Of a stretch of DNA of 64,000 bases, positions 12,288-53,319 are shown piece by piece. Below the pieces are notes generated by a model, which saw nothing but the letters and a program-made list of their open reading frames with translations, did not search any database and was not told the DNA's origin. Source of the stretch: Kutzneria viridogrisea (GTDB lineage Bacteria > Actinomycetota > Actinomycetes > Mycobacteriales > Pseudonocardiaceae); assembly GCA_014138725.1 (NCBI GenBank), contig JACJID010000001.1, forward strand, positions 1,178,001 through 1,242,000. The letters are read 5' to 3'. Each line of letters opens with the position of its first letter. Position 1 is the stretch's first letter. The position numbers and the translations under genes are program-made.

Positions 12288-12680
12288 ATGAATACATCTG
12301 AGCGGGCGGTGGCGCGCGCAATTGAATACATGTTCTCGAACCTGCGAGAAGAAGTCACGGTCGAGGATATGGCTCGTGCGGCAATGTTCAGCAAATTTCA
12401 CTTCACCAGGCTGTTTCGGCGGGTTACCGGAGCCTCGCCTGGTCGTTTCCTGACCGCGGTCCGGCTGCAGGAGGCGAAGCGCCTGCTCCTGTCGACACCG
12501 ATGAGTGTCATCCAGGTCAGCCGTCTTGTCGGTTACGCCAGTGTCGGCACATTCGGTGCGAAGTTCAGCAAGTCGGTGGGTGTGCCACCCAGCATCTATC
12601 GGAGGTGTGTCCACCGAGTGCCCCTGTCTGCCGTCAACTCTGGTAACGGTCAGCTCGGCACCTCGGAGAGAACGGCATGA
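12288..12680 (+). CDS. AraC-family regulator, DNA-binding domain only
   Basis: This 130-residue protein consists almost entirely of the two helix-turn-helix units of AraC (TVEDMARAAMFSKFHFTRLFRR, then SVIQVSRLVGYASVGTFGAKFSK). It lacks the usual N-terminal sensing domain, so it is a stand-alone binding module. It starts behind GGGGGAAGG at 12288. Its stop overlaps the start of the E1 alpha gene (ATGA), so it is translated together with the first enzyme genes of the cluster. It likely regulates this operon or the cluster; the signal is unknown. Confidence 0.85.
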   Translation: MNTSERAVARAIEYMFSNLREEVTVEDMARAAMFSKFHFTRLFRRVTGASPGRFLTAVRLQEAKRLLLSTPMSVIQVSRLVGYASVGTFGAKFSKSVGVPPSIYRRCVHRVPLSAVNSGNGQLGTSERTA

Positions 12681-13675
12681 CCTCCACAACGCACCGCGGG
12701 CTGCTCCGGGAAATGGTGCGAATCCGGTGTGTCGAGGAGATGCTCGCGGATCTCTACCGCGACGAGCGGGAGATACGCACTCCCACGCACTTCTCCATCG
12801 GTCAGGAAGCCACCGCGGTCGGGGTGTGCTCGGCCACCCGAAAGGACGATCTCGTCTACACCGGGCACCGGTGCCATGCGCCTTATTTGGCCAAGGGCGG
12901 CGACCTGAAACGCATGGTGTCGGAACTGTACGGAAAGCAGGACGGGTGTGCCGGCGGCCGGGGTGGTTCGATGCACCTGGTCGACCTGGCGGCCGGCTTC
13001 GGCGGTGCCACCGCGATCCTGGCTGAGGGAATCTCGGTTGCCGTGGGCGCCGCGTGGGCGTTGGCCATGCGGTCCACCTCACGGGTCGCGCTGACCTTCT
13101 TCGGCGACGGCGCCGCCGAGGAGGGCACCTTCCACGAGTCGCTGAACCTGGCGGCGGTGCGGAAAATCCCCGTGGTCTTCGTGTGCGAGAACAACAACTA
13201 CTCCATTCACTCGCCGCTGGCGGCCCGCCAGCCCGCGGGGACGACGATCTGGCAGCGCGCACAGGGATACGGCATGCCGGCCGAATACGTGGACGGCAAC
13301 GACGTGCTGGCCGTGCACCGGGCCGCCGCGGCGGCGGTCGAGTGGTGTCGCGCCGGCAACGGCCCGTACCTGCTCGAACTGCGCACCTACCGCTGGCGCG
13401 AGCACGTGGGCCCGAACTGGGATCGCGGTATCGGCTACCGGACCGAGGCTGAGGTGGACTCCTGGATCGACCGCTGTCCCATCCGCCGCGCCACCGCGGC
13501 GCTGCGAGCCGAGGAACCCGCTGTCGACGAGCTGGTCGATACCTGGCGTGCCGAGTTCGACGCGGAGATCGGCGCGGCGGTCGCGCACGCGAAGGCCAGT
13601 CCGTTCCCGCCAGTCGAGGACCTGCTCGATGGTGCCTACGAGGACGCACTGAGCAGTCAGCCGGGCAGGAGGTAG
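12677..13675 (+). CDS. TPP-dependent dehydrogenase-type E1 component, alpha subunit
   Basis: This 332-residue protein matches the alpha subunit of pyruvate/acetoin/branched-chain 2-oxoacid dehydrogenase E1. The thiamine diphosphate motif is complete: FFGDGAAEEGTFHESLNLA followed by CENNNYSIHSP (GDG...NN). The phosphorylation-loop region YRWREHVGPN is also present. With the beta subunit it would decarboxylate a 2-oxoacid and hold an acyl or hydroxyalkyl carbanion. No E2 (lipoyl) or E3 gene is near. In several antibiotic clusters (for example AviB1/AviB2 of avilamycin) such orphan pairs are assigned to adding a two-carbon branch to a deoxysugar; supply of an acyl-CoA starter is the alternative. 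Confidence 0.85.
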   Translation: MTSTTHRGLLREMVRIRCVEEMLADLYRDEREIRTPTHFSIGQEATAVGVCSATRKDDLVYTGHRCHAPYLAKGGDLKRMVSELYGKQDGCAGGRGGSMHLVDLAAGFGGATAILAEGISVAVGAAWALAMRSTSRVALTFFGDGAAEEGTFHESLNLAAVRKIPVVFVCENNNYSIHSPLAARQPAGTTIWQRAQGYGMPAEYVDGNDVLAVHRAAAAAVEWCRAGNGPYLLELRTYRWREHVGPNWDRGIGYRTEAEVDSWIDRCPIRRATAALRAEEPAVDELVDTWRAEFDAEIGAAVAHAKASPFPPVEDLLDGAYEDALSSQPGRR

Positions 13676-13679
13676 CCAA

Positions 13680-14714
13680 GTGCGCGAGCTGAGGTACTGC
13701 GAAGCCATCAGCGAAGCCATCGTGCAGTGCATGGCCGAGGACCCGAGCATCTTCGTGGCCGGCGAAGGGGTGGACGATCCGGTCGGCACGCACGGCACCA
13801 CCAAGGAGGCGACCCGGCTGTTCGGCCGGTCCCGGGTGCTCGACCTGCCCAACTCGGAGAACGCCTGCGCCGGTGTCGCGGTGGGCGCGGCGGCGCAGGG
13901 GATGCGGCCACTGGTCGTGTACACCAGACAGGACTTCATGTTCCTGGCGATGGACGCGGTGGTGAACCTGGCCGCGAAGTGGCGCTACATGTACGGCAAC
14001 AAGGGCGGGGTCCCGGTGGTCACCAGGGCGGTGGTCGGCCGGGGCTGGGGCCAGGGTGCCACGCACTCGCAGAGCCTGCACTCGGTGTTCGGGCACTTCC
14101 CCGGGCTGTACGTGGCCACCCCGGCCAGCCCGGCCGACGCCAAGGGACTGTTGGTGCAGGCGCTACGTCTGGACACGCCAACGGTGCTGGTGGAGAACCG
14201 GGGGCTGTACCAGCTGACCGGGCCGGTGCCGGAGGAGGCGGTGCCGATCCCGTTCGGCCGTGGGCGGATCGCCCGGCACGGTTCGGACGTGACGGTGGTG
14301 GCCGCTTCGCTCATGGTGCACGAGGCCGAACGCGCTGCCGATCTGTTGGCCGGGCAGGGGATCGGGGTGGAGGTGATCGACATCCGGAGCATCCGGCCGC
14401 TGGACGAGACCATCGTGTGCGAGTCGGTGGCCAGGACGGGCCGGCTCGTCGTGGCCGACACCAGTTGGGCCCGCTACGGGTTCTCCGCCGAGGTGGCCGC
14501 CGTGGTGGCCGAGAACCTGCCCGGTGCGCTGCGCAAGCCGGTACGCAGGCTCACCCTGCCGGACTGCCCCGCCCCGGTGTCGATGCCCCTGGAGCAGGCG
14601 TTCCACCCCAACGCGGGCCGGATCGTCGAGGCCTGCCTTGACCTGCTCGACGGCGGCGAAGTGGAGTTGTCGGCATTCGATGACGTCGCATCTGGCGTCG
14701 TCGGGCCTTATTAG
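13680..14714 (+). CDS. TPP-dependent dehydrogenase-type E1 component, beta subunit
   Basis: This 344-residue protein starts at a GTG behind GGAGG, four bases after the alpha gene. It has the transketolase-like pyrimidine-binding part (YCEAISEAIVQCM, DLPNSENACAGVAVGAA, where the Glu would activate thiamine diphosphate) and the C-terminal transketolase domain (GSDVTVVAASLMVHEA, VIDIRSIRPLDE). It must pair with the alpha subunit to make an alpha2-beta2 enzyme. Its position next to a glycosyltransferase rather than next to E2/E3 genes favours a role in sugar branching, but this is inference. Confidence 0.85.
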   Translation: MRELRYCEAISEAIVQCMAEDPSIFVAGEGVDDPVGTHGTTKEATRLFGRSRVLDLPNSENACAGVAVGAAAQGMRPLVVYTRQDFMFLAMDAVVNLAAKWRYMYGNKGGVPVVTRAVVGRGWGQGATHSQSLHSVFGHFPGLYVATPASPADAKGLLVQALRLDTPTVLVENRGLYQLTGPVPEEAVPIPFGRGRIARHGSDVTVVAASLMVHEAERAADLLAGQGIGVEVIDIRSIRPLDETIVCESVARTGRLVVADTSWARYGFSAEVAAVVAENLPGALRKPVRRLTLPDCPAPVSMPLEQAFHPNAGRIVEACLDLLDGGEVELSAFDDVASGVVGPY

Positions 14715-14782: not shown

Positions 14783-15931
14783 ATGCGGGTACTTTTCTGT
14801 TCCTTCTCGAATTCGGCAAATCTGCTTCCGCTGATTCCGTTGGCCTGGGCGGTTCGAGCCGCCGGGCACGATGTTTTGCTGGCCACCGCCGGCGGTGGGG
14901 TGCCGGTGGCCGCCGCCACCGGTCTGCCGGTGGCCAAGGTGGCTGATGACGAGGAATTGTTGGCCGCGCACAAGAAGGTGCTCGCCGCCGCTGGGCAGCG
15001 GGAATTCGATCAAATGGTGAGTGATGCCATTCAGGCGGACGACGTTCACCTCGCCATCGTCATCACCGCCGTCTCCTGCGCGGCCACAGTGGACGGTACG
15101 GTGGCGGTGGCCGAACAGTGGCGGCCCGACCTCCTCGTGTACGACGGGTTGCAGCAGGCCGCGCCGCTGGTGGCCGGGAAGTTGGGGATTCCCGTGGTGG
15201 CACACGGGTTTGGGCTGATCAGCGACCAGGTGGTCGCCGGCATTGTCCGGGACACGCTGCAGGACGCGTACCAGCGGCATGGCGCGACCTACCCCACTCG
15301 TTGCGAGCGGATCGACATCCTGCCGCAGAGCCTGCAGGGCGACGGGCTCGACGGGTGGCCGGTGCGGTACATGTCCTACCACGGCGGTGGTGTGCTGCCG
15401 GAATGGGTCCTGCGGCGCCCTGCCCGGCCGAGGATCGCGGTGACCATGGGCACCACCGTTGAGGACGACGGGAAGCGGCGCTGGTTGCGGGGCGTGCTGG
15501 CGGCGGCGGGGGAGCTGGACGCGGAGTTCGTGTGCGCCCTCGGTGAGACATCGACACCGTTGCCGGACAACGCTTTTTCCGTCGGCTGGGTGCCGATGAA
15601 CGAGTTGCTGGCGCACTGCGACGCCGTTGTGCACCACGGTGGCAGTGGTTCGACGCTCGCGGCACTGGCGGCGGGGATACCCCAGTTGATCGTCCCCGTT
15701 GGTCCCGCGTACTCGGCCCACGCGGTCCCGGTCGCCCAGCGCGGCACGGCGATGGTTCGTGAGCTCGCGGAGGTGGACCAGGAGTGCCTACGTCGGTTGC
15801 TGGAGGACACCGCCATGCGGACCGCGGCCGGCGAGGTGGCCGCCGAGATGTACGCCATGCCCGCGCCGGCCTCGATCGTGCCCGAGCTGGAACGGCTCGT
15901 GACCACGGGTGGTGGCCGTACACTGGGATGA
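14783..15931 (+). CDS. Glycosyltransferase GT1 (GT-B fold), catalytic His replaced by Asn
   Basis: This 382-residue protein belongs to the same GT1-family group as the other eight in the cluster. It starts MRVLFCSFS and carries the nucleotide-sugar motif HHGGSGSTLAALAAGIPQ near residue 285. The conserved catalytic His near position 13 (TH, SH or GH in the sister proteins) is Asn here (NSANLLPLIPLAW). It is also shorter and the most divergent of the set. It could be inactive, work as a helper protein, or use another base. It follows the E1 genes and its stop overlaps the proposed kinase start, so it belongs to that operon. Confidence 0.8.
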   Translation: MRVLFCSFSNSANLLPLIPLAWAVRAAGHDVLLATAGGGVPVAAATGLPVAKVADDEELLAAHKKVLAAAGQREFDQMVSDAIQADDVHLAIVITAVSCAATVDGTVAVAEQWRPDLLVYDGLQQAAPLVAGKLGIPVVAHGFGLISDQVVAGIVRDTLQDAYQRHGATYPTRCERIDILPQSLQGDGLDGWPVRYMSYHGGGVLPEWVLRRPARPRIAVTMGTTVEDDGKRRWLRGVLAAAGELDAEFVCALGETSTPLPDNAFSVGWVPMNELLAHCDAVVHHGGSGSTLAALAAGIPQLIVPVGPAYSAHAVPVAQRGTAMVRELAEVDQECLRRLLEDTAMRTAAGEVAAEMYAMPAPASIVPELERLVTTGGGRTLG

Positions 15932-17259
15932 TGTCCGGACAACGGGCGGCACTGGGGGAACGGGGTAGGGGCGTGATGGCCGACGGACCGGATTCGAGCG
16001 AGTCCGACCAACGGGAACCGTTGCGGCGCAACTCGATCCTGCTCAGCCTGGCCAATGTGGGCGACCGGCGGCAGCCTGCCGTGGCCCTCGTCGCCGGCGC
16101 GATCGCCTGTGAGTTCCCGCTATTCGCGCTGGTGCCGAACCAGGCGGCCGGCGGCCGCGTCCTGCTGACCGCCACCGCCGCCGCGCTGGTGGTGCTGTTC
16201 GCCGCCGTGCACGTGCTGGCCGCGGTGTCCTTCCACCTCGGCCGGCTCAGCGACGCGCGCCGCGGTCTGCTGTGCGGGGTGCTGGCGGTGCTGGCGTGCG
16301 TCCAGGTGTGGTGGTTCGGCGCCGGCTGGTCGCTGCTGCTGCCGTACCTGGCCGCCGCGCTGGCCATCTCGCTGCCGAGCCGGCTGCTGCTTGTCACACT
16401 GGGTGTCCCGGTCGCGTTGGCCGTCCTGCTCACGGCGGTCGGTACCGGCATCGCGACCGGCACCGTGATCGTGGAGTGTGTCCTGGTCGGCCTGGGCATG
16501 GCCAGCTTCCGGCGGATGCTGGAGCTGGTGGCGGTGCTGTACCGGGACCGGGAACGGGTCGCGACCGCCGTCGCGGTCGAGGAACGGCTGCGGATCGCCC
16601 GGAACCTGCACGACCTGCTCGGGCACACCCTGCTGGGCATCGTGTTGAAGTCCGAGCTCATCCGCAAGCTCGCCGCCAACACCGCTCGTGGGCTCACCGG
16701 GGACGACCTGGCCACCCTCACCGAGATCGCCAGCGAGGCCGGAAACGTCGAGTCGATCGGCCGGCTCGCCATCGCCCAGGTACGGGAGAGCGTCACCGAG
16801 TGCCGGACCGGCAGCCTCGCCGCGGTCATCGCCCAGGCACGGATCGCCCTGGGCGACGCGGGCATCCAGGTGGTGGTGCGCACCCCACGGGAGCCGCTGC
16901 CGGCCGTGGTGGAGGCGGTGCTGTCGTGGGTCGTCCGGGAGGGCGTGACCAATATTGTCCGGCACAGCCGGGCCAGGGAATGCGAGATCACCATCTACCA
17001 GGAGGACCGGTACGCGGTCGCCGAGCTGATCGACGACGGCAGCGGCGGCCGGCGCGCGGGCGGCCTCGGCCCACCGACCCCGGGCGTGGTGAGCGGCAAC
17101 GGGCTGCTCGGCCTGTTCGAGCGGCTGGTCAAGGTGGGGGGACAGCTGGACGCCCAGCCGCGCGGTGACAACGGCGGCTTCCGGCTGCGGGCGCTGGTCC
17201 CGCTGCCGACCGCCGCCCGGACGAGCGCGGGCAGCACCACCGAGGAGGGCACGGCGTGA
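15928..17259 (+). CDS. Two-component sensor histidine kinase, NarL-partner type
   Basis: The 443-residue frame from the ATG at 15928 overlaps the GT1 stop (ATGA); a start at 15973 or 15976 is possible. About six hydrophobic segments fill residues 50-185, followed by the HisKA_3 dimerisation box RIARNLHDLLGHTL with the phospho-accepting His near 226. The ATPase domain has the N-box REGVTNIVRHSRA and the G-box GNGLLGLFERL. It would sense a membrane or extracellular cue and phosphorylate the response regulator encoded next to it, overlapping by four bases. The pair probably controls this cluster or export-linked genes. Confidence 0.85.
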   Translation: MMSGQRAALGERGRGVMADGPDSSESDQREPLRRNSILLSLANVGDRRQPAVALVAGAIACEFPLFALVPNQAAGGRVLLTATAAALVVLFAAVHVLAAVSFHLGRLSDARRGLLCGVLAVLACVQVWWFGAGWSLLLPYLAAALAISLPSRLLLVTLGVPVALAVLLTAVGTGIATGTVIVECVLVGLGMASFRRMLELVAVLYRDRERVATAVAVEERLRIARNLHDLLGHTLLGIVLKSELIRKLAANTARGLTGDDLATLTEIASEAGNVESIGRLAIAQVRESVTECRTGSLAAVIAQARIALGDAGIQVVVRTPREPLPAVVEAVLSWVVREGVTNIVRHSRARECEITIYQEDRYAVAELIDDGSGGRRAGGLGPPTPGVVSGNGLLGLFERLVKVGGQLDAQPRGDNGGFRLRALVPLPTAARTSAGSTTEEGTA

Positions 17260-17861
17260 TCCGCATTCTGCTGGCAGAGGACCAGAACATGGTGGGCAGT
17301 GCGCTGGTCAAGCTGCTGAACCTCGAACCGGGGCTGTCCGTGGTCGAGCGGGTCTGCACCGGACCCGAGATCGTGCCGGCCGCCCTGCGCTGCCAGCCGG
17401 ACGTGGCCGTTCTCGACATCGAGCTGCCGGGGTGCAGCGGCCTGGACGCGGCCGAGCAACTGCACCGGCAGCTGCCCGACTGCCGGATCATGATGATCAC
17501 CGTGTTCGGCCGGCCGGGCTACCTGCAGCGCGCGGTTGCCGCGGGCGCCACAGGCTTCCTGGTCAAGGACCGGCCGGTGGACGAATTGGCGACCGCGATC
17601 CGCCAGGTGGCGGCCAGCGAGACCGTCCTGGACCCGGAGCTCGCCGCGGCTGCCATGCGACTCGGCCGGACGCTGCTGAGCAGCCGGGAACGGGAGATCC
17701 TGATCCTGGCCGGCACCGGGGCGCCGGTCGCCGATATCGCCGCGACGATCTACCTGTCCGAGAAGACGGTCCGCAACCACCTCTCGTCCGCGATCGGCAA
17801 GACCGGCACCAAGAACCGATTCGAGGCCGCTCAGCTGGCTCGGCAGAACGGCTGGCTCTGA
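17256..17861 (+). CDS. LuxR/NarL-family response regulator
   Basis: This 201-residue protein has a receiver domain with acidic residues ED at 8-9, phospho-acceptor Asp54 (VAVLDIELPG) and Lys in the FLVKDRP loop. A C-terminal LuxR-type helix-turn-helix follows (LSSREREILILAGTGAPVADIAATIYLSEKTVRNHLSS). The GTG start overlaps the stop of the kinase gene, so the two are translationally coupled and surely partners. Downstream it faces the end of the SARP gene, with only four bases between. Confidence 0.9.
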   Translation: MIRILLAEDQNMVGSALVKLLNLEPGLSVVERVCTGPEIVPAALRCQPDVAVLDIELPGCSGLDAAEQLHRQLPDCRIMMITVFGRPGYLQRAVAAGATGFLVKDRPVDELATAIRQVAASETVLDPELAAAAMRLGRTLLSSREREILILAGTGAPVADIAATIYLSEKTVRNHLSSAIGKTGTKNRFEAAQLARQNGWL

Positions 17862-17865
17862 CTCT

Positions 17866-18693
17866 TCAGCTGCCGGTGGGGGTCAACGGCCAGTGTTCGG
17901 TCAGCGCCGCCGAGTCCTGCCAGTCGTCCAGTCGCGGGTCGGCGGTCAGCACGGCCTGGTGCAATCGGCTCAGCCGGGTCGAGGGTTCCACGCCGACCTC
18001 GGCCACCAATTCGTCACGCAGGTCGCGGAATGTTTCAAGGGCCTGGGCACGTCGACCACACCGGTACAACGCCACCATGAACTGGGCGCGCAGGTCCTCG
18101 TTCAGCCGATGTTCGGTCACCAGCGCGGCCAGTTGGGCGAGAATCGCGTGGTGCCGGCCGAGCAACATTTCCGCGTCGATCAGCCGTTCCATCGCGTACA
18201 GCCGAGACTCGTTCAGCTTGATCACGTGCGACTCGAGCTGCCTGCCGTGCTCGACATCCACCAATGACGGACCCCGCCACTGGGCCAGTGCCTGGCGGAA
18301 ATTGTCCGCCGCCGGTCTCCATTGGCCCTGGTCCATACTGGAATGCCCGGCCGCCATGAGTTTCTCGTATCTGTGCAGATCGAGCTCGCTGGAACCGGTG
18401 TAGAAGACGTAACCGCCCGGCCGTGTCGCCAGGATGTCCTTGGGCGATTCGGTGCCGCAAGGTAACGCCGCCCGCAGGAGCTTGCGTAACTGCAGGATGT
18501 ACGTCTGAAGCGTTGTCGACGCGCTTCTCGGCGCGTCCTGGTCCCAGAGTTCCTGCTTGATCGCCGACAGCGAAACCAGCCGATCGGCATTGACCAGCAA
18601 AATTGCGAGGACTTTTCGTGACTTCACTGCGGAAGGCACGCATGATCGTCCTGCGTAGCTCGCCTGAATTGGCCCCAGTATCCCCAGTTGCAC
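17866..18693 (-). CDS. SARP-family transcriptional activator
   Basis: This 275-residue protein has the two SARP domains: an OmpR-like winged helix in residues 1-95 (LGILGPIQASYAGRS, TTLQTYILQLRKLL, ATRPGGYVF) and the bacterial transcriptional activator domain (DLHRYEKLMAAG, ALAQWRGPSLVDV, up to LVAEVGVEPSTRLSRLHQAV). SARPs are pathway-specific activators of antibiotic clusters in actinomycetes. It is divergent from the acyl-CoA ligase operon, so the 370-base gap between them likely holds binding sites for both directions. It is the best candidate for the main on-switch of the cluster. Confidence 0.92.
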   Translation of the reverse strand: MQLGILGPIQASYAGRSCVPSAVKSRKVLAILLVNADRLVSLSAIKQELWDQDAPRSASTTLQTYILQLRKLLRAALPCGTESPKDILATRPGGYVFYTGSSELDLHRYEKLMAAGHSSMDQGQWRPAADNFRQALAQWRGPSLVDVEHGRQLESHVIKLNESRLYAMERLIDAEMLLGRHHAILAQLAALVTEHRLNEDLRAQFMVALYRCGRRAQALETFRDLRDELVAEVGVEPSTRLSRLHQAVLTADPRLDDWQDSAALTEHWPLTPTGS

Positions 18694-19062: not shown

Positions 19063-20748
19063 ATGACGGTCCGGGGTGGGGCGCATGACCTGGACGCTGC
19101 CCCAGAACATCAGGTCGATCCTAAATGTCAAGTCCACGTTAAAAATACGGACACCCTCAGTATCGCGACGGGGCCGGGCCTGGCCGTGATTGCCGAACTG
19201 GTGGGCGGTCGCCGAATCGACGAGCTCCTTGCCAACGCGACGTTTCGGGCCCCGGACCGGGTGGTGCTGCGGGCCGGGGACCGAGAAGTGACCTACGGCC
19301 GGTTGGGTGAGGATGTCGACCATTTCGCCGCCGCGTTGCGCAGGACATATGGGGACGCGGACCTGGTCGTCGCGGTGGCGATGAGCCTGGAGCCCGCGTT
19401 CGCCGTCGGCTTCTACGGGACCGCGCGCGCCGGTCACGTCAGTGCCTTGGTCAACCCGCTGCTGCGCGAGGAGGGGTTGCTGCACGTCCTGCGTACCTGC
19501 CGGGCTCGGGTCGCGATCGTGCCGCCGGCGCTGCACGCGCGGCTCGTGCCGGTCCGCGACCGCCTGCCCGACCTGGAACTGATCCTGCTCACGCACAACG
19601 ATCCCGAACTGCCTGAGGACGTGCCGACCGTGGCCACCTGGGCCCGGGACAACGGCTCCGACGGCGTGGAAATGCCGGCCGTCGCCGAGGAGCAGGTAGC
19701 GTGCCTGCAGTTCACCAGCGGTACGACCGGCGCGCCGAAGGCGGTCCGGCTCAGCCACCGCAACCTGCTCGTCAACGCCGCGCAGACCGTCCTGCACCAC
19801 CGGCTCGACGAGACCTCGGTGCTGTGCAACAACCTGCCGACCTTCCACCTGATGCACCTGAACATCGCGGTGCACGCGGGGGCGACGATGCTGCTGTGCG
19901 CCGAGCCGAACCCGACGGCCGCGATGGTGATGGCAAATCGGTACCGGGCAACGCACTTCTACGCGATTCCGCCCCGGTTGGCCGCGTTGGCCAGGGCACC
20001 GGAGCTCGCCGAGCTGGAGGTGCCTTCGCTCCGTGCCGTTCTGTCCGGCGGCGCCACCCTGCCCGTGGACGCGGCGACCGCGCTGTCCGCCCAGCTTGGC
20101 GTCCCCGTCGTCCAGGGGTACGGCCTCGCCGAGACCTCGCCGTCGGTCCACCTCGCCGACCTGGACCGGCCGCGGCCGGGGTCGTCCGGCGTGCCGGTGC
20201 CCGGGACCGAGACCCGGATCGTGGACATCGACACCGGCGCGGTGGTGCCGTTGGGCAGGTCGGGTGAGATCCAGGTCCGCGGGCCGCAGCTGATGCTCGG
20301 CTACCTCGGCCGGGACCTGGCCGCCGACCTGACCCCGGATGGCTGGTTCGCCACCGGCGACATCGGTCGGCTCGACGCCGACGGCCACCTCTACGTGGTC
20401 GACCGGATCAAGGACGTCTTCAAGTGTGACAACTGGTTGGTGTCGCCGACGCAGATCGAGCGGGTGTTGATGCGGCACGCCGAGGTCGCCGAGTGCGCGG
20501 TGGTCGACCATCCCGACGAGGAGCACACCGCCGTCGCCTGCGCGGTGATCGTGCCGACCGGGCCGTCGGCGTCCGGCGTCGACATCGCCAAGGCCGCCAA
20601 CGAGAACGTGCCGTCCTACGAACAACTGCGCTACGTGGCGCTGACCGACCACATCCCACGATCGGCAACCGGCAAGGTCGACCGCAAGCAGCTGCGTGCG
20701 CTCCTCCACCACGGGATAACGCCCACACCAGTGGAGACCCAGAACTAA
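19063..20748 (+). CDS. AMP-forming acyl-CoA/acyl-ACP ligase
   Basis: This 561-residue adenylate-forming enzyme has the phosphate loop FTSGTTGAPKAVRLSHRN, the VQGYGLAETSP motif, GWFATGDIG, the hinge DRIKDVFKC and the C-terminal lysine region PRSATGKVDRKQL. The ATG at 19063 has GAAAGGGG six bases upstream and is preferred over the longer frame. It activates a carboxylic acid as the adenylate and passes it to CoA or a carrier protein. In the same operon come an ABM-domain protein, a methyltransferase and an acyltransferase, so it may prime the polyketide synthase or activate an acyl group attached late in the pathway. Confidence 0.88.
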   Translation: MTVRGGAHDLDAAPEHQVDPKCQVHVKNTDTLSIATGPGLAVIAELVGGRRIDELLANATFRAPDRVVLRAGDREVTYGRLGEDVDHFAAALRRTYGDADLVVAVAMSLEPAFAVGFYGTARAGHVSALVNPLLREEGLLHVLRTCRARVAIVPPALHARLVPVRDRLPDLELILLTHNDPELPEDVPTVATWARDNGSDGVEMPAVAEEQVACLQFTSGTTGAPKAVRLSHRNLLVNAAQTVLHHRLDETSVLCNNLPTFHLMHLNIAVHAGATMLLCAEPNPTAAMVMANRYRATHFYAIPPRLAALARAPELAELEVPSLRAVLSGGATLPVDAATALSAQLGVPVVQGYGLAETSPSVHLADLDRPRPGSSGVPVPGTETRIVDIDTGAVVPLGRSGEIQVRGPQLMLGYLGRDLAADLTPDGWFATGDIGRLDADGHLYVVDRIKDVFKCDNWLVSPTQIERVLMRHAEVAECAVVDHPDEEHTAVACAVIVPTGPSASGVDIAKAANENVPSYEQLRYVALTDHIPRSATGKVDRKQLRALLHHGITPTPVETQN

Positions 20749-45407: not shown

Positions 45408-46862
45408 TCACACCGCCCACAGGCTGTGCAGCGAGCACATCATGCTGCGCGCCTGGACGTTGAGGTACCGGCTGTGCCGGACCAGGGTGCCCATCTGGCC
45501 CAGCGTCATCCAGATGTAGTTCTCCGGTACGGCCACGGGTACCTCATCGCCGACCTCGAACACCTGGTACCGGTTGCTCGCGTGGTAGAACCGACCGCCC
45601 TCTTCGGACAGTACGACGTCGTAGCGCAGCGCGCTCTTCGGCAGGGTGTCGAGCAGGTCGAGGAACGCCGGCTGCTGGGCCTTCGGCAGGTCACGGTAGT
45701 TGCCGGGGCAGCATTGCACGGTCGGACCGATCTCGACCGAGTCCAGGTAGCCGGGCTCCATTCTCGCCTGCAGCAACACGTGTGGCACGCCGTTGATCCG
45801 TTTGGTGATCACCGCGATCACCCCCTGCTCGCTCGGCGCCATGAGCGGCTGGGTCCACTGGGTCACCTCGCGGTTGGAGGCCAGGACGCGGGCGCCGAAC
45901 ACATCGAAGTACTTGCCGTCGGGGTGCGTGATCCGGTCGTCGGAGATCTCCCAGCCGGTGGTGTCGCGCAGCGGGATCAGCTCCGCCGTCAAGGAGTAGC
46001 GGGCCTTCAACTCGGTCAGCCAGGAGAGGATCTCGACCGTGTCGTGCACCGCCGTCGCGTCGGTGGAGTCCACGTCGAGTGTCGCGGCCAGCGCGCGTTC
46101 CCACTCGCCGCCGGGTGCCGTCTTCGCATCGGTCGCGAACGGGATGCACGACAACACCGTCCGCGTGTCCATGTTGAGGACGTTGTCCTCGGTCATCAGC
46201 TCAAGCAGCTGGCCGATGGTCAGCCAGCAGAAACCCTCCTCCAGCGGGAGGTCCTCGGTGACCTCGACGACGATGTTGCGGTTGCGCTTCTGGTAGAACC
46301 ACGACCCCTGCTCGGACTGCAGCACGTCCACCAGCACACGGCCCTGCCGGGGCTGGACGAAGTACTCCAGGTACGTGATCGCGTTCCCCCGGTGCACCCT
46401 CGTGTAGTTGCTGCGGGTGGCCTGCACGGTGGGGGAGAGCTGGACCACGTTCACGTTGCCCGGTTCCATCTTGGCCGACATCAGGCAGTGCAGCACCCCG
46501 TCGAACTCCTTGACCAAGATGCCGAGGATGCCGATCTCCGGCTGGTGCAGGATCGGCTGGCGCCACTCGGGTACCGGGCCGAAGTCGGTCCGCACCCGCA
46601 GCCCCTCGACGGTGAAGAAGCGCGAGCTGGCGTGCCCGATGTTGCCGGTGACCGGGTCGATCGACCAGTCCCGCAGGTCGTGCAGGGGGATCGGCTCGGT
46701 CCGGAAGTCGTTGACATGACTGCGTTGCGCGAACCACTGCCGGAACTGCGCGGTCGTCATGAACCGGCCGGCCGGTTCGGCGGCCGAGGCGGCGAACCGC
46801 AGCGCCTGGCCGGTGCGGCCACCGTGCCGAGGTACCGCGCCAACGTCGAGGGTGGAACTCAT
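45408..46862 (-). CDS. NDP-4-keto-6-deoxyhexose 2,3-dehydratase
   Basis: This 484-residue enzyme has the two tandem repeats of the family (residues about 35-245 and 265-480), each with a W(S/E)I-D/S start, a PGNVNVVQLSPTVQATRSNY or PGYLDSVEIGPTVQCCPGNY block and a final LTIGQL or MTLGQM block. It removes the C-2 hydroxyl to give a 3,4-diketo sugar, the gateway to 2,6-dideoxy and 2,3,6-trideoxy sugars; homologues are UrdS, LanS and TylX3-type enzymes. It lies between GT9 and GT8 on the minus strand. Confidence 0.93.
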   Translation of the reverse strand: MSSTLDVGAVPRHGGRTGQALRFAASAAEPAGRFMTTAQFRQWFAQRSHVNDFRTEPIPLHDLRDWSIDPVTGNIGHASSRFFTVEGLRVRTDFGPVPEWRQPILHQPEIGILGILVKEFDGVLHCLMSAKMEPGNVNVVQLSPTVQATRSNYTRVHRGNAITYLEYFVQPRQGRVLVDVLQSEQGSWFYQKRNRNIVVEVTEDLPLEEGFCWLTIGQLLELMTEDNVLNMDTRTVLSCIPFATDAKTAPGGEWERALAATLDVDSTDATAVHDTVEILSWLTELKARYSLTAELIPLRDTTGWEISDDRITHPDGKYFDVFGARVLASNREVTQWTQPLMAPSEQGVIAVITKRINGVPHVLLQARMEPGYLDSVEIGPTVQCCPGNYRDLPKAQQPAFLDLLDTLPKSALRYDVVLSEEGGRFYHASNRYQVFEVGDEVPVAVPENYIWMTLGQMGTLVRHSRYLNVQARSMMCSLHSLWAV

Positions 46863-46922: not shown

Positions 46923-48089
46923 TCAACGGCAGCCGGAGGGCACCGCGGCGGCCAGCGCCTCCAGTTCGGGCACGATCTCGCCGGGCAGCGGCGCGGCCAG
47001 GTTCTCCTCCGCCGCCGCGCGGGCCGCGACGCGGTACCGGTTGTCCGCCAACAGACGCGTGCACTCGACGGCGATCCGTTCCGGCGTGCCCACCGCTGCC
47101 GGCAGGTGGTGGCCGGCCTCCAACCGGTGCACGTGCTCGGCGTTGGCGAACTGGTCCGCGGCCTGCGGGATGACCAGTTGCGGCACGCCGTTCAGCATCG
47201 CGACGAAGGTGGTGCCCGCGCCGCCGTGGTGCACGACCGCGGCACACCGCGGCACCACAAGGGAAAGCGGCAGCCACGACACCACACGTACCTGGTCGGG
47301 TGCCTGTGGCCAATCCGCGGCGAGGTCATCCGCCAGTGCCACCACGACCTCGACGCCGGTGTCGGCCAATGCCTTCGCGGTGGCCTGCAGCATCGGCTCG
47401 AACCGGCTGCGGCCGTATCGCGGCAGGTTGTTGCCGAAGGTCAGGCAGATCCGTGGCCGGTCCGGCCGGGGCGCGGGCAGGCCGGGGTCGACCGCCCTGC
47501 CGTTGTAGGGCACATACCTGATTCGCCGGACCCGGGGAGCGTGATCCCGTCTCGGGTCCGGGGCCCACACGTCCACCGCGAGGTCGGGGGAGGGGAGCCG
47601 CGACAGGCCCAGCTCGGCCAACTCCGGCGCCAGCTCGGCGCCGGCCGCCGGGCGGAACTCGGGCAGCCCGCCGAAGCCCCAGCCGTGCTCGACCCAGGGC
47701 AGCCCGAGCCGGGCGGCGGCCATACCGGCCGCGTAGTCGGTCGGCTCGGTGATCACCAGGTCGGGTCGCAGCACCCGGCAGATGTCCAGAGTGGACTCGA
47801 GGACCATGGCCGCGTACCGGCCCCATGCTCGGCCCGCGGCCTCGGTACGTCCGGCCGGGTCCTTCGGGTGGCTCAGCTGTGCGCCGGACCGGTCGCGCAG
47901 CATGAAGGACGGTACCTCGATCTCGGGCAGCCAGCCGACCGGCAGCAGACCGGCCTCCTCGATGGGCCCGTGAAAGTTCCGCGTGGCACTGACCATGACC
48001 TCGTGTCCCGCGGCCTGCAGGGCGTAGGCCAGCGGCACCATCGGAAACAGGTGTCCGTGCAGTGGAGAAGTCGAGAACAGGACTCGCAT
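46923..48089 (-). CDS. Glycosyltransferase GT9
   Basis: This 388-residue GT-B enzyme starts MRVLFSTSPLHGHLFPMVP; the ATG at 48089 is preferred to 48098 because GAGG then lies at a proper distance. The donor motif is HHGGAGTTFVAMLNGVPQ. The acceptor half (FMLRDRSGAQLSHP, WVEHGWGFGGLPEF) differs from GT3-GT7, so it is a separate subgroup. It is the first gene of the minus-strand array and is divergent from the P450 gene, 140 bases away. Confidence 0.92.
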   Translation of the reverse strand: MRVLFSTSPLHGHLFPMVPLAYALQAAGHEVMVSATRNFHGPIEEAGLLPVGWLPEIEVPSFMLRDRSGAQLSHPKDPAGRTEAAGRAWGRYAAMVLESTLDICRVLRPDLVITEPTDYAAGMAAARLGLPWVEHGWGFGGLPEFRPAAGAELAPELAELGLSRLPSPDLAVDVWAPDPRRDHAPRVRRIRYVPYNGRAVDPGLPAPRPDRPRICLTFGNNLPRYGRSRFEPMLQATAKALADTGVEVVVALADDLAADWPQAPDQVRVVSWLPLSLVVPRCAAVVHHGGAGTTFVAMLNGVPQLVIPQAADQFANAEHVHRLEAGHHLPAAVGTPERIAVECTRLLADNRYRVAARAAAEENLAAPLPGEIVPELEALAAAVPSGCR

Positions 48090-48229
48090 GTGCGCCATCC
48101 TCGCGGCGGCGACTCGGCGCCCGGCTCAAGGCTGGCTCGATCGGACGCGTGGTTCATCGAGGGTTTCTCAAGCCCGGAGCCCTGTACCGGGCCATAACCT
48201 CCGTGCTGTCCGCCACTGGAGGGACCGTC

Positions 48230-49417: not shown

Positions 49418-49420
49418 GTC

Positions 49421-50401
49421 ATGGTCGCACCGATCAGGGTCGGCGTGCTGGGCTGCGCCAACATCGCCTGGCGTCGTACGCTTCCCGCCTTCGCGGAGTC
49501 CAGCACCGCGACCGTGGTCGCCGCGGCGAGCCGGGATCCGCACAAGGCGGAACGGTTCGCGGTCCGGTTCGGCTGCGCTCCCGTTGTCGGCTATTCGGCG
49601 TTGCTGGAGCGCGAGGACGTCGACGCGGTGTATCTGCCGTTGCCCACCGGGCTGCACGCGCGCTGGGCCGCCGATGCGTTGCGGGCGGGCAAGCACGTGC
49701 TGGCCGAGAAGCCGTTGGCGACCACCGCGAGCGAAGCGACCGAGCTGATCAGCTTGGCCGAACAGCGGGACCTGGTGCTGATGGAGAACCGCATGTTCTC
49801 CTATCACACCCAGCACGAGGAAGTGCGCAAGCTGGTCGCGAACGGCGAACTCGGCGAACTGCGCACGCTGCACGCGACCATGACGATTCCGCCGCTGCCG
49901 GAGGACGATCCCCGGTACCGAGCGGAGCTTGGCGGCGGTGCGCTGCTCGACGTCGGGTTCTACCCGTTGCACGCCGCGCTGTTGCTGTTGACCGAACCGC
50001 TTGAGGTGCTCGGCGCGGACCTGCACCGGCATCCCGAGCGAGGCGTGGACGTGCGCGGTGCGGTGCTGCTGCGCGACGCCAATGGTGTCACCGCCCACCT
50101 GACGTTCGGTATCGAGCACAGCTACCGCGCGGCGTACGAACTGAGCGGCAGCCAGGCGAGACTGGTGCTGGAACGCGCGTTCACGCCGCCGCCGTCGTGG
50201 CAGCCGGTGCTGCGGATCGAGGCCCAGGACCGGAGCGAGTGCCGTACGCTCCCCGCCAGCCCGCAGTTCCTTAACAGTGTCAACGCCTTTACTGCGGCCG
50301 TACTGGACAGGACGCGACCGCGGGACCACCTCCGGACGACGTTGCGTGGGCTGGAGCTGATGGATACCGTGCGGGCTTACGACCACAAAGGACGGTCATA
50401 G
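49421..50401 (+). CDS. Gfo/Idh/MocA-type NDP-hexose 3-ketoreductase
   Basis: This 326-residue protein has the N-terminal dinucleotide site VGVLGCANIAWRRTLPAF and the family motif AEKPLATT with the catalytic Lys, plus ELGGGALLDVGFYPLHAAL. In deoxysugar pathways (UrdT, KijD10 and relatives) such enzymes reduce the 3-keto group straight after the 2,3-dehydratase. The matching 2,3-dehydratase is at 45408. It is translated after the P450 with a three-base gap. It decides the C-3 configuration of the dideoxy sugars. Confidence 0.88.
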   Translation: MVAPIRVGVLGCANIAWRRTLPAFAESSTATVVAAASRDPHKAERFAVRFGCAPVVGYSALLEREDVDAVYLPLPTGLHARWAADALRAGKHVLAEKPLATTASEATELISLAEQRDLVLMENRMFSYHTQHEEVRKLVANGELGELRTLHATMTIPPLPEDDPRYRAELGGGALLDVGFYPLHAALLLLTEPLEVLGADLHRHPERGVDVRGAVLLRDANGVTAHLTFGIEHSYRAAYELSGSQARLVLERAFTPPPSWQPVLRIEAQDRSECRTLPASPQFLNSVNAFTAAVLDRTRPRDHLRTTLRGLELMDTVRAYDHKGRS

Positions 50402-50450: not shown

Positions 50451-52067
50451 ATGACTGTAGCGGGAGATGACGCACGGGTGCTCGTGGTCGGCGCCGGCCC
50501 GGTGGGCCTGACCGCCGCGCACGAGTTGGCCAGGCGGGGCATCGCGGTCAGACTGGTCGACCGCGCGCCCGGCCCGGCGACGACCAGCCGGGCCACCGCC
50601 ACGCACGCCCGGACACTCGAGATATACGAGCAGATGGGTCTGCTGGCGGACCTGCTGCCACGCGGCCAGCGGGCCGAGAACTTCAGCATCCACATGCGTG
50701 GTCGCGTGCTGATCCGGTTCGGCACCGACTACTCCGCGCTGCCCACCCGGTTTCCGTTCACCTTGCAGGTGGACCAGGTGATCACCGAGGAGGTGCTGCG
50801 CGAACGGGTCCGTCGGCTCGGCGTGGACATCGAGTGGGGTGTGACCCTGGAGTCGTTGCGGCAGCAGGGAAACCGGGTGTACCCCGCGTTGCGGCACAGC
50901 GACGGGCGGGAGGAGACGGCACAGGCCGGTTGGCTGGTCGGCGCGGACGGCGCGCACAGCACCGTGCGCAGCCGGCTCGGCCTGCGCCTGGTGGGTGACT
51001 CGCTGGAGACCTGGCTGGTCGCCGATGCCATCGTCGACGCGGACCTGCCCCGGGACAGCCTGCACTGGGTACACACCGGCACCGGCACGGTCCTGCTGGT
51101 TCCGTTCCCCGAGGAGGGGAAGTGGCGGCTGCTGGACACCGAGGACACCGGCTCGGCCGAGGACCCGGACGCGGTGGCGCGCCGGTTCAGCGAGAAGATC
51201 GGCCGGGCCCTGCGCCGGCCCGTGCACGTGCACCGGCCGAGCTGGCTGTCGGTGTTCACCATCCAGCAGCGGATGATCCAGCAGATGCGGGTCGGCCGCT
51301 GTTTCGTGGCCGGCGACGCCGCGCACGTGCACAGCCCCGCGTCCGGGCAGGGGATGAACACCGGCATCCAGGACGCGTACAACCTGGCATGGAAGCTGGC
51401 GGACGTGATCCACGGCAACGCGGCCGAGGAGCTGCTGGACACCTACGGCGAGGAGCGCGTCCCCATCGGCGAGACGTTGTTGCACAGCACGAAGACCGCG
51501 ACCGCGCTGATCGCCCTGCGCAACGCGGCGGCCCCGGTCGTGATGCCGCTCGGGCTGGGCATCGTCGACGCGATCAAGCCGCTGAAGCGCAAGATCGAAC
51601 AGAAGATGATGCGGACGATGTCCGGGCTGGCCCTGAACTATCGGGAGAGCTCGCTCAGCCTGCGCGCTCCCGAGGTCCCGGGCGGTTTCGCCCCGGGCGA
51701 CCGGATCAGCTGTGGCGACGGCACCGTGCGCGACCACCTCGGCTGGCAACGGCTGGTTTCCGAGTTGACCGAACCCGGATGGCTGGTGCTGCTGTTCGCC
51801 GAGACCGCACGGGACGTCGCCGAGGAGGTCAATCTTCGGTTCCGCGGTGTCACCGCCCACGTGGTCGGATCGTCGGAGTTGGTGGACCCGACGGGGCGGG
51901 TGCGTGCGGACTTCACGGCTTCGGAGGATTCCTTCGCGGTGATCCGCCCGGACGGCTACCTGGCCGCTCGGGGCACCCTCGGCGACCTGCCGGCGGTGTT
52001 GAGACGGCTGCACCTGTTGCCCGTCCCCATGCCAGCCGACGCCGTGACCGCGGAGGAAATCCGTTGA
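50451..52067 (+). CDS. FAD-dependent aromatic monooxygenase (TcmG/PgaE-like)
   Basis: This 538-residue flavoprotein of the PHBH fold has the FAD site VLVVGAGPVGLTAAHELARRG, the motif GADGAHSTVRSRLG and the second FAD motif CFVAGDAAHVHSPASGQGMNTGIQDAYNLAWKL, and a thioredoxin-like C-terminal domain. Homologues hydroxylate aromatic polyketides with NAD(P)H. It starts at ATG 50451 behind AGAGGAAG and its stop overlaps the cyclase start by one base. Confidence 0.92.
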   Translation: MTVAGDDARVLVVGAGPVGLTAAHELARRGIAVRLVDRAPGPATTSRATATHARTLEIYEQMGLLADLLPRGQRAENFSIHMRGRVLIRFGTDYSALPTRFPFTLQVDQVITEEVLRERVRRLGVDIEWGVTLESLRQQGNRVYPALRHSDGREETAQAGWLVGADGAHSTVRSRLGLRLVGDSLETWLVADAIVDADLPRDSLHWVHTGTGTVLLVPFPEEGKWRLLDTEDTGSAEDPDAVARRFSEKIGRALRRPVHVHRPSWLSVFTIQQRMIQQMRVGRCFVAGDAAHVHSPASGQGMNTGIQDAYNLAWKLADVIHGNAAEELLDTYGEERVPIGETLLHSTKTATALIALRNAAAPVVMPLGLGIVDAIKPLKRKIEQKMMRTMSGLALNYRESSLSLRAPEVPGGFAPGDRISCGDGTVRDHLGWQRLVSELTEPGWLVLLFAETARDVAEEVNLRFRGVTAHVVGSSELVDPTGRVRADFTASEDSFAVIRPDGYLAARGTLGDLPAVLRRLHLLPVPMPADAVTAEEIR

Positions 52068-52870
52068 TGCGCATCATCGACCTGAGTACCCCTGTCGACG
52101 CCAACAAGTGGGAGCCGAACCCGATCATCCACGAGGTGATGTCCGCGGCCGAAGGCGCCCGGCACATGGCCGACGGGATGAAGGCCAACCACGGCATCGA
52201 CTTCGACCCGGCCAACCTGCCCGGCGGCGAGTTGCTGTCCCTGGACACGATCACCCTGACCACGCACACCGGAACCCACGTCGACGCACCGTCGCACTAC
52301 GGTTCCTCCGCGAAATATGGCCGGATGCGGCACATCGACGAACTGCCGTTGGAGTGGTTCATCGGCGCCGGGGTCGTACTGGACATCAGTGACGCGCCGA
52401 CCGGCAGCGTGGGTGCGGACGTCCTTGAGGCGGAGTTCAGCCGAATCGGTTACCGCCCGGGCGAAGCCGACATCGTGATGCTGCGTACCGGTGCCGACGT
52501 ACGTGCGGGAACCCCGTCGTATTTCACCGACTTCGTCGGCCTGGACCGGTCGGCGACCGCGCTGTTGCTGAACCTGGGCGTACGGGTCATCGGGACGGAC
52601 GCGTTCAGCCTGGACGCCCCGTTCGGCCACATGCTCCGCCGCTATCAGGAGAGCGGCGACCAGTCGGTGCTGTGGCCGGCACATTTCCTTGGCCGGGAAC
52701 GGGAGTACTGCCAGATCGAACGGCTGGCCAACCTGTCGGCCCTGCCGTCGACCGGCTTCATCGTGTCCTGCCTGCCAGTGCGGATCGTCGGGGCGGGCGC
52801 CGGCTGGGCCCGCGCCGTGGCGATCATGGACGAACCTCTTGCCCCCGTAGCGAAAGGAGAGACGACATGA
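52067..52870 (+). CDS. PF04199-family cyclase (putative polyketide cyclase)
   Basis: This 267-residue protein shows the family motif HTGTHVDAPSHYG (HxGTHxDxPxH), which binds metal, and starts MRIIDLSTPVDANKW. PF04199 proteins occur both as kynurenine formamidases and as polyketide cyclases in aromatic antibiotic clusters (DpsY/SnoaM-related group). In the absence of any other recognisable cyclase in the window it may fold one or more rings. It sits between FAD oxygenase and SnoaL-like genes with overlapping stops and starts. Confidence 0.85.
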   Translation: MRIIDLSTPVDANKWEPNPIIHEVMSAAEGARHMADGMKANHGIDFDPANLPGGELLSLDTITLTTHTGTHVDAPSHYGSSAKYGRMRHIDELPLEWFIGAGVVLDISDAPTGSVGADVLEAEFSRIGYRPGEADIVMLRTGADVRAGTPSYFTDFVGLDRSATALLLNLGVRVIGTDAFSLDAPFGHMLRRYQESGDQSVLWPAHFLGREREYCQIERLANLSALPSTGFIVSCLPVRIVGAGAGWARAVAIMDEPLAPVAKGETT

Positions 52871-53319
52871 CCCAGCAGCTAGCCATAACCGGTGTGGTCT
52901 CCGCTGATGTCTATCAGGAGGTGGTGCACTTCTACGCGCGGCACATGCATCTCCTCGACGCAGGCGCGGCGGCGGAGTGGGCCGCCACGTTCGTCGACGA
53001 CTGCTTGATGGACCTGCCGAACCTGGAACCGGTGCACGGCCGTACCGCGCTGGCGGAGATGATGGCGAAGTCGATCGCGCAGCTGCGTGCCGGCGGCGAG
53101 CAGCGTAGGCACTGGCACGGGATGATCACGGTTGACGAGATGCCGGGGGGTGAGCTCGCTGTTCGTTGCTACGCGCTGGTGTTCTCCACGCTGTTCGGTG
53201 GGGAGCCGCGGTTGCACCGGACCTGTGTGTGCCATGACGTGTTGGTGCGGGAGGGCGGCACGCTGAAGGTGCGGTCGCGCCGGGTGACTCGGGATGACCT
53301 GAACACGGATTTGAGCTGA
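52867..53319 (+). CDS. SnoaL-like (NTF2-fold) protein
   Basis: This 150-residue protein fits the SnoaL-like NTF2 fold: YQEVVHFYARHMHLLDAGAAAEWAATF then DLPNLEPVHGRTALAEMM and a C-terminal beta sheet (HRTCVCHDVLVREGGTLKVRSRRVTRD). Members act as ring cyclases or cofactor-free hydroxylases in aromatic polyketide pathways. The ATG overlaps the cyclase stop (ATGA). It is the last gene on the right side of the cluster, 30 bases before the inverted repeat region of DUF222/HNH copy B. Confidence 0.85.
   Translation: MTQQLAITGVVSADVYQEVVHFYARHMHLLDAGAAAEWAATFVDDCLMDLPNLEPVHGRTALAEMMAKSIAQLRAGGEQRRHWHGMITVDEMPGGELAVRCYALVFSTLFGGEPRLHRTCVCHDVLVREGGTLKVRSRRVTRDDLNTDLS

Follow-up and report, generated by a model that had tools for sequence, protein, structure and literature searches.

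Gene content and extent of the cluster

The DNA analyzed here, which we call the window, is a stretch of 64,000 nucleotides (bases 1178001-1242000 of contig 1) of the Kutzneria viridogrisea genome (10.25 Mb; 69% G+C), and it carries a type II polyketide synthase (PKS) gene cluster rich in glycosyltransferase (GT) genes. Genes were called by codon use, and most of the called genes were then checked with Pfam or NCBIfam. These gene calls and domain scans confirmed that genes for the ketosynthase (KS) proteins KS-alpha and KS-beta and for an acyl carrier protein (ACP) stand beside nine GT genes (GT1 to GT9; Table 1), as a first-pass annotation had proposed, and the frames of all nine GTs are intact and open. 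The same annotation had ended the cluster at 53319, but it probably reaches about 31 kb beyond that point, spanning about 12.7 to 84.6 kb in window coordinates (roughly 72 kb) and comprising 11 GTs in total. Past the window end lie two more GTs, 2.8 and 14.8 kb away, and an aromatase, of which the core has none. This aromatase, at 75.4 kb, is 36 to 51% identical to the aromatases of clusters in the KS-beta clade described below (one matches at 62% over a piece of 110 amino acids [aa]), and since the core lacks one, the match ties the flank to the core. The reading frames of the called core and flank biosynthetic genes are open, including that of a PKS of 2082 aa. We give a probability of about 75% to the reading that this ~72-kb cluster serves the synthesis of a heavily glycosylated tetracycline-type polyketide.

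Minimal PKS, amidotransferase, and aglycone class

The active sites of KS-alpha, KS-beta, and ACP are intact, and the minimal PKS is adjoined by a gene for an OxyD-like amidotransferase that keeps its N-terminal Cys (MCG). A profile made by aligning this protein with three relatives and run against genome contigs gave at least 563 relatives among at least 592 stretches, the best 80 of which were analyzed. A KS-beta gene lies near the amidotransferase in 18 of these 80 loci, and two more have a weak KS-alpha only (27 and 30%). Kitasatospora aureofaciens (the chlortetracycline species), S. halstedii, S. humidus, and Actinomadura physcomitrii are among the 18, as are four Streptomyces loci arranged as KS-alpha, KS-beta, ACP, amidotransferase, 3-dehydratase, ketosynthase III (KSIII), short-chain dehydrogenase/reductase (SDR), GT, methyltransferase, GT, and 4-ketoreductase.

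In a KS-beta tree of 49 rows (48 different), a set picked partly by amidotransferase and so not neutral, the KS-beta from the window sits in a 19-row clade (support 99/98) with an amidotransferase beside every row, that of K. aureofaciens included. Nineteen of the 20 amidotransferase-linked rows belong to this clade, the exception (L063) standing elsewhere in the tree; three rows show no amidotransferase match in the 40 to 80 kb read. The amidotransferase label changes twice on the tree, versus 15.7 times in shuffles. This KS-beta is a deep branch with no close relative in the tree. Where present in the other clade members, the counterparts are 72 to 80% (KS-alpha), 65 to 70% (KS-beta), 51 to 72% (ACP), and 63 to 70% (amidotransferase) identical. 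The best KS-beta from another genome of the genus is 60% identical (7 genomes searched, own included), and a plasmid search with KS-beta gave Streptomyces KS-beta at 61 to 63% among the best 20 of 674 records. Judged from these sequences, the aglycone class is tetracycline-type (amidotransferase-linked), so that the aromatic type II PKS product annotated earlier can now be given a class.

Tailoring genes and the OxyJ-type reductase

The chelocardin gene list with oxytetracycline counterparts, in the portion of PMC7749508 available to us, includes an OxyK-like didomain aromatase of 315 aa and an OxyI-like cyclase of 150 aa, besides OxyN-, OxyF-, OxyG-, OxyH-, and OxyL-like proteins, and it has OxyD and OxyP as suppliers of the malonamate starter. 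Each chelocardin-list protein has a family counterpart in this cluster except OxyJ, the C9 ketoreductase that is part of both the oxytetracycline and the chelocardin sets (PMC7749508, same portion). No OxyJ-type C9 ketoreductase was found in the cluster: its sole classical SDR, at 66056, is 31 to 37% identical to OxyJ-type reductases and was ruled out for this role, as the OxyJ-type reductases of seven clusters (A. physcomitrii, S. humidus, L066, L070, G303, G047, and a second cluster of K. viridogrisea) share 69 to 80% mutual identity in their best matches. Because the SDR matches of four cervimycin-like stretches (see below) also include no OxyJ-type reductase, we do not regard this type as required of the whole group. 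A C9 reductase may be supplied from elsewhere, for example from the second cluster.

Glycosyltransferases

PF06722 was found in all nine window GTs by an own-genome search, and PF06722 together with PF21036 in the four of the nine that were scanned with Pfam. The annotation of the nine as one family therefore stands at this level, but they are not one even set: GT2-GT7 form a subclade, GT9 lies near a putative C-glycosyltransferase, and GT1 and GT8 are separate. TIGR04516 was matched far below its cut-off (201 to 280 bits versus 440; ten GTs scanned, including GT10). The catalytic His is present in eight of the nine, as annotated, and the donor motif is conserved apart from small changes; over the whole cluster, 10 of 11 GTs have the N-terminal His and a recognizable donor motif, the exception being GT1 (Asn), and all 11 frames are intact. 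No P450-derived activator gene was found beside the GTs. The sole P450 seen (at 48230) is a true P450, which was ruled out as such an activator by its heme Cys and by a score of 102 bits versus the activator-model cut-off of 343.

Pairwise identity among the 11 GTs is 27 to 47%. GT2-GT7 are 38 to 47% identical to each other, versus 27 to 35% to the rest, and GT10 and GT11 share 41%; the low identities among GT2-GT7 argue against their having arisen by a recent tandem duplication or through an assembly fault. A second GT tree combined the GTs of this cluster with those of 12 other regions and of the saccharomicin row (69 in all), a long A. physcomitrii branch and one NBC_00249 row of odd composition being left out. 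In this tree GT2-GT7 and seven of the eight GTs of the cluster in genome G303 (same order) form one clade (100/100), one G303 GT standing beside GT4 with weak support (92/37) and six in a group of their own (100/100). A purely in-cluster expansion of GT2-GT7, true in the first tree, is broken in the second by the GT beside GT4. On this topology, GT2-GT7 belong to one clade common to this cluster and G303 and enlarged in each. Separate expansions are seen in A. physcomitrii (fourfold, on another branch; 100/99) and in saccharomicin (tenfold; 100/99). A GT2-GT7 profile run against 396 genomes of the phylum (four candidates per genome scored) found one other genome at E<=1e-90, with 341 bits versus 641 to 653 for the own GTs listed.

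Comparison with solved structures covered GT1, GT3, GT8, GT9, and GT11 (Table 1); we take 2yjn to be EryCIII and 3uyk to be the NDP-rhamnosyltransferase of spinosyn. GT9 is nearest to SsfS6 (E 2e-68), described in the part of PMC4330554 at hand as the putative C-glycosyltransferase of the tetracycline SF2575.

Of the 50 PF06722 matches in the genome, 11 fall within 65 kb here, versus ~0.3 expected under an even spread. Near other type II cores the domain occurs 8 times in 53 kb (A. physcomitrii), 8 times in 59 kb (G303), and 6 times in 42 kb (S. humidus), and each of the four cervimycin-like loci has 5, one with a partial sixth 29 kb off. Hence the earlier statement that GTs are far more numerous than usual holds, but its yardstick of about four was low, with kin at 5, 6, and 8 and cervimycin at five. 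The largest GT group in 35 other genomes, a nonrandom set selected for similarity in amidotransferase or KS-beta (GT search cut-offs of 1e-18 and 1e-24, which miss weak members), is the row of ten in the saccharomicin producer (G310). The saccharomicin cluster has ten GTs for 17 sugars, and its authors in 2012 knew no cluster with as many, according to the excerpt of PMC3469384 available. The eleven GTs here exceed that number, and no mention of nine, ten, or eleven GTs in an aromatic pathway was found among the papers listed by a literature search. The type II PKS clusters at L132-L135 (A. physcomitrii) and L199-L202 (G303) each hold eight GTs and have undergone their own GT expansions.

Sugar supply, two-carbon branch, and caps

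The cluster has genes for RmlA, RmlC, a 2,3-dehydratase, a 3-ketoreductase, a 3-dehydratase, a 4-ketoreductase-like SDR, and an aldo/keto reductase; by established deoxysugar pathway logic, such a set indicates 2,6-dideoxy and 2,3,6-trideoxy hexoses. Several sugars, as annotated before, are likely because the cluster holds most of a deoxysugar pathway; the GT count, however, does not give the sugar count, since saccharomicin uses ten GTs for 17 sugars. No 4,6-dehydratase was found within the cluster, and an own-genome search gave two above cut-off, both on contig 2. Two candidates in the cluster were ruled out as dTDP-glucose 4,6-dehydratase, the 23081 gene by TGG in place of TDE (by eye) and a score below the family cut-off and the 79927 gene by the absence of a TDE motif (by eye).

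An E1-alpha/beta pair stands beside NDP-sugar genes. Its best relatives, in a type II PKS cluster of genome G047 (same order), are 63% (alpha) and 76% (beta) identical; the next best E1-alpha among 298 genomes of the order is at 48%. An E1-beta at E<=1e-60 occurs in 6 of 18 cluster-bearing genomes, at 38 to 43% identity outside G047. The G047 cluster itself has KS-alpha at 66%, KS-beta at 58%, a 2,3-dehydratase, and one GT in the 80 kb read. Pau11/Pau12 and AviB1/AviB2 are proposed makers of a C-4 acetyl branch (PMC4425429 and PMC4753412, in the parts available), and branched-octose antibiotics include quinocyclines and trioxacarcins (PMC4753412, same part). By analogy, the E1 pair here may form a C-4 acetyl branch on a sugar.

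KSIII is nearest to ChlB3; its other matches include daunorubicin-type chains (DpsC) and, seventh in rank, the cervimycin-type sugar acyltransferase CerJ (acyltransferases or starter enzymes). The AT motif of the neighboring type I PKS is VASHS, which we take as a hint of a branched acyl unit, and together with the ER and KR domains it makes a reduced, perhaps branched acyl group likely. Identity as a 6-methylsalicylate-type synthase, the kind used for polyketomycin, was ruled out by the ER domain. In the S. humidus stretch, type I PKS matches occur in pieces (37 and 43%), alongside three matches to KSIII and counterparts of the second hydroxylase and third methyltransferase (identities in Table 1). 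A bPH_2 protein pair beside GT11 is shared with the saccharomicin cluster (32/42% identity) and the G303 cluster with eight GTs (43/51%), whereas the stretches from A. physcomitrii and S. humidus gave no match to it. This pair is possibly a means of self-protection tied to heavily glycosylated products.

Comparison with known and related clusters

The first-pass annotation had not recognized the cluster as a described one, and gene-by-gene comparison agrees: no near-identical gene order was found in the regions compared, and the cluster is undescribed in the literature searched. Non-GT proteins shared at >=35% identity over >=70% of length number 22 of 39 for S. humidus, 20 of 39 for A. physcomitrii, and 23 of 39 for G303, counts in which one gene may enter twice through the cyclases CYC1 and CYC2.

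Cervimycin (cvm, BGC0001439) is the nearest published kin that could be named. As here, its product is of the tetracycline type with 6-deoxyhexoses, six of them from a 40-kb cluster with five GT genes (PMC5797532, in the portion available). By gene content (five GTs, KSIII), not name, four loci (L056, L062, L067, and L069) fit as cervimycin-like. They share with this cluster KS-alpha, KS-beta, ACP, the amidotransferase, the 3-dehydratase, the KSIII-like acyltransferase, the 4-ketoreductase, RmlC, and GTs, but they differ in gene order, and their GT sets lie on other branches. SnoaL and the aromatase are adjacent with no reductase between them in three of the four, with no aromatase in the fourth stretch, and the 40 to 60 kb read of the four gave no match to the E1 pair, the type I PKS, or the carbamoyltransferase.

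With the OxyD-type tetracyclines (the chelocardin/oxytetracycline list in the portion of PMC7749508 used above; K. aureofaciens L073) the cluster shares the minimal PKS, the amidotransferase, and OxyF/G/H/I/K/L/N/P-like parts by family, and the KS-beta of L073 is in the same clade; it differs in that no OxyJ-type C9 reductase was found and in having a deoxysugar pathway and 11 GTs. The likeness to SF2575 is known from one protein, SsfS6. Saccharomicin (sam, Saccharothrix espanaensis, G310) resembles this cluster in its ten EryCIII-like GTs in one tandem row, its related sugar genes, and its bPH pair, but no KS-alpha/KS-beta match was found in the 60 kb read, its GT expansion is separate, and the His is absent from seven of its ten GTs. 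The G303 cluster has a type II PKS, 8 GTs in 60 kb (seven belonging to the GT2-GT7 clade), KSIII, and a bPH pair; it differs in that the 75 kb read there gave no match to the amidotransferase, in having an OxyJ-type reductase, and in a KS-beta outside the clade.

Genomic setting

No known transporter was found among the cluster genes scanned with Pfam (window 12677 to 84586), and export may be provided from elsewhere in the genome. Two DUF222 pieces were seen, one in the GT3/GT4 interval and one after the core (54060-54554). Before the cluster, a stretch is bracketed by two 366-aa open frames that begin alike and are oppositely oriented (window 9648-10748; genome C1:1168302-1169402), probably an insertion element that cut an alcohol dehydrogenase-like frame at 10758-11126 (no Pfam scan). 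Outside the cluster, an NB-ARC ATPase with TPR repeats lies at window 2623-4845. The second type II PKS cluster of this genome (C2:1791694-1823681; L004, L050, L051) encodes an OxyJ-type reductase and a KS-beta that is 62% identical; another three GTs of the family lie ~8 kb from its nearest matched gene.

Table 1. Coordinates of cluster features in the window. Positions above 64000 continue the numbering past the window end. C1, contig 1; TPP, thiamine pyrophosphate; PMP, pyridoxamine phosphate; ABM, antibiotic biosynthesis monooxygenase.
Feature	Position	Strand	Remarks
E1-alpha-like TPP enzyme	12677..13675	+	PF00676; GDG...NN kept; proposed first half of two-carbon sugar branching
E1-beta-like TPP enzyme	13680..14714	+	76% to G047 counterpart
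GT1	14783..15931	+	EryCIII-like, 382 aa; Asn for N-terminal His; nearest solved 9ke2 and 9ke1 (rhamnosyltransferases), then CalG3
Sensor histidine kinase	15973..17259	+	
LuxR-type response regulator	17256..17861	+	
SARP-like regulator	17866..18600	-	Named by inspection, no Pfam scan; homologues in several related clusters
Acyl-CoA ligase	19186..20748	+	OxyH-like by family and neighborhood
ABM monooxygenase	20763..21101	+	OxyG-like by family and size
O-Methyltransferase-family enzyme 1	21091..22146	+	OxyF-like; 65% to K. aureofaciens counterpart
Acyltransferase	22143..23123	+	OxyP-like
Extended SDR sugar epimerase/reductase	23081..24028	-	
O-Methyltransferase-family enzyme 2	24063..25106	-	
dTDP-sugar 3,5-epimerase	25120..25716	-	RmlC-like
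KS-alpha	25911..27200	+	Active-site Cys, TGCTSG, read by eye
KS-beta (chain length factor)	27197..28411	+	Gln for Cys, SEQAGG, read by eye
ACP	28433..28693	+	DSL
Asparagine-synthase-like amidotransferase	28727..30571	+	OxyD-like; proposed malonamate starter
Extended SDR	30576..31631	+	NDP-hexose 4-ketoreductase-like
NDP-hexose 3-dehydratase	31628..32932	+	PMP-dependent
Aldo/keto reductase	32941..33906	+	
Glucose-1-phosphate nucleotidyltransferase	33903..34964	+	RmlA-like
GT2	34984..36282	+	432 aa; GT2-GT7 clade
GT3	36449..37681	-	410 aa; GT2-GT7 clade; nearest solved 2yjn
DUF222 fragment	37938..38891	-	GT3/GT4 interval; likely mobile remnant outside pathway
GT4	39208..40443	-	411 aa; GT2-GT7 clade
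GT5	40446..41693	-	415 aa; GT2-GT7 clade
GT6	41707..42954	-	415 aa; GT2-GT7 clade
GT7	43007..44233	-	408 aa; GT2-GT7 clade
GT8	44235..45404	-	389 aa; divergent; nearest solved 2yjn
NDP-hexose 2,3-dehydratase	45408..46862	-	
GT9	46923..48098	-	391 aa; nearest solved SsfS6, then 4rig/4rie transferases and 2p6p
Cytochrome P450	48230..49417	+	Heme Cys (FGFGVHHCVG)
NDP-hexose 3-ketoreductase-like	49421..50401	+	GFO/IDH/MocA
FAD monooxygenase	50478..52067	+	OxyL/OxyE-like
PF04199 cyclase	52067..52870	+	OxyN-like
SnoaL-like cyclase	52867..53319	+	150 aa; OxyI-like by size and neighborhood
Mobile debris	54060..60763	.	DUF222 and reverse transcriptase pieces, a phage integrase, and DDE endonucleases; Pfam; small intervening frames unscanned
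Second FAD ring hydroxylase	61372..62838	-	52% to S. humidus counterpart
Luciferase-like monooxygenase	62907..63869	+	
Third O-methyltransferase-family gene	63924-64979	-	Window ends 64000; 55% to S. humidus counterpart
Second luciferase-like gene	65144-66028		Past window
SDR	66056-66808		Past window
GT10	66805-67950		C1:1244805-1245950; past window
KSIII-like gene	68049-69086		Past window
Type I PKS	69102-75350		KS-AT-DH-ER-KR-ACP, 2082 aa; past window
SRPBCC aromatase/cyclase	75434-76381		OxyK-like, 315 aa; past window
bPH_2 protein pair	76461-78568		L001:12461-14568; beside GT11; past window
GT11	78778-79947		C1:1256778-1257947; nearest solved NDP-rhamnosyltransferase 3uyk; past window
Extended SDR	from 79927		Frame open further upstream than called; past window
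Second PF04199 cyclase	80981-81757		Past window
Hydrolase	81903-82784		Past window
Carbamoyltransferase	82814-84586		Last gene; past window

Discussion

Our comparisons suggest a pathway in which malonamate would start the chain and the D ring would keep an unreduced oxygen. GT9 would set the first sugar, probably as a C-glycoside, and GT2-GT7 would add one O-linked chain or several, made of further 2,6-dideoxy or 2,3,6-trideoxy sugars, for which dTDP-glucose 4,6-dehydratase would be supplied from elsewhere in the genome. The E1 pair would put an acetyl branch on one sugar, as is thought for AviB1/AviB2. KSIII would place the type I PKS acyl group on a hydroxyl of a sugar or of the aglycone, with another hydroxyl capped by the carbamoyltransferase. 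The expected product would thus be a C- and O-glycosylated, acylated, and carbamoylated tetracycline type with a two-carbon-branched sugar, the number of sugars being a prediction as well.

Several observations weigh against this reading. With 487 bits, the amidotransferase clears the cut-off (267) of the NCBIfam model of plain asparagine synthase, its best solved match is 7ylz, a hydroxyamidotransferase, and 62 of the best 80 amidotransferase loci (of at least 563) are without a KS-beta nearby; it is this enzyme by itself that points to malonamate use. The KS-beta set was picked partly by amidotransferase, and 26 of its 49 rows had too little flank for a label. The Oxy names come from family, size, and neighborhood, not from direct comparison with oxytetracycline sequences, and the second of the two PF04199 cyclases is without an explained role. 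The assignment of GT9 draws on one best match, and two kin GTs in its clade are without the His, as is GT1.

The alternative that survives best keeps the same class with fewer sugars, some of GT2-GT7 being alternative enzymes for congeners or silent, and the product bearing five or six sugars as in cervimycin. We regard this as a serious possibility, at somewhat less than even odds. GT2-GT7 may have diverged to other roles, being only 38 to 47% identical, GT1 has lost its His, and five GTs suffice for the six sugars of cervimycin (PMC5797532, as above). Unused copies would, however, be expected to decay, and the GTs are intact in frame and, GT1 aside, in His and donor motif; the ten saccharomicin GTs, moreover, serve more sugars than their own number (PMC3469384, as above). 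At the other extreme, the product could be the most heavily glycosylated tetracycline-type compound known, with a C-glycoside start by GT9, GT2-GT7 acting in turn, at least 10 sugars, one of them a two-carbon-branched octose, and capping by acyl and carbamoyl groups. We put this forward tentatively and think it rather doubtful.

It is unlikely that the E1-alpha/beta pair makes an unusual acyl starter or extender instead of a sugar branch. Acyl groups are the usual E1 product, and the PDB matches of the pair are ordinary E1 enzymes, but no E2 or lipoyl gene was seen among the cluster genes scanned, the closest E1 kin adjoins a 2,3-dehydratase in another aromatic cluster (G047), and the starter is already indicated by the amidotransferase. 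A shade less probable still is that two clusters are neighbors here, a core at 12.7-53.3 kb and a separate pathway at 61.4-84.6 kb. Mobile debris interrupts the cluster at 53.4-61.3 kb, with ~8 kb of integrase, DDE endonuclease, and reverse transcriptase pieces separating core from flank, so that the flank, which has a second PF04199 cyclase, a second hydroxylase, and its own GT pair, could be another pathway's; this is a further point against the single cluster. On the other hand, the core shows no aromatase of the type that the flank supplies, and equivalent core and flank genes are joined at one place in the S. humidus stretch. A decaying cluster without a product is very improbable, because the insertion debris and DUF222 pieces between genes and the lack of an internal 4,6-dehydratase gene are set against open core and flank biosynthetic frames, that of the 2082-aa PKS included, and two 4,6-dehydratases elsewhere in the genome.

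The combination of parts and the GT number is, on present sequence evidence, unmatched in the comparisons made, while the single parts are of known kinds, and the cluster, which would serve a glycosylated tetracycline-type polyketide, is a sugar-rich variant of a known antibiotic pathway type, not a new system. Its value would lie in discovery and not in a new principle: the most heavily glycosylated form of the product would be a hybrid of tetracyclines and saccharomicin-like oligosaccharide antibiotics, and long glycans on a tetracycline-class aglycone could alter target and uptake. Together with its GT-rich relatives in G303 and A. physcomitrii, in which GT branches have expanded on similar cores, the cluster offers a natural test of how GT duplication alters chain length and acceptor choice.

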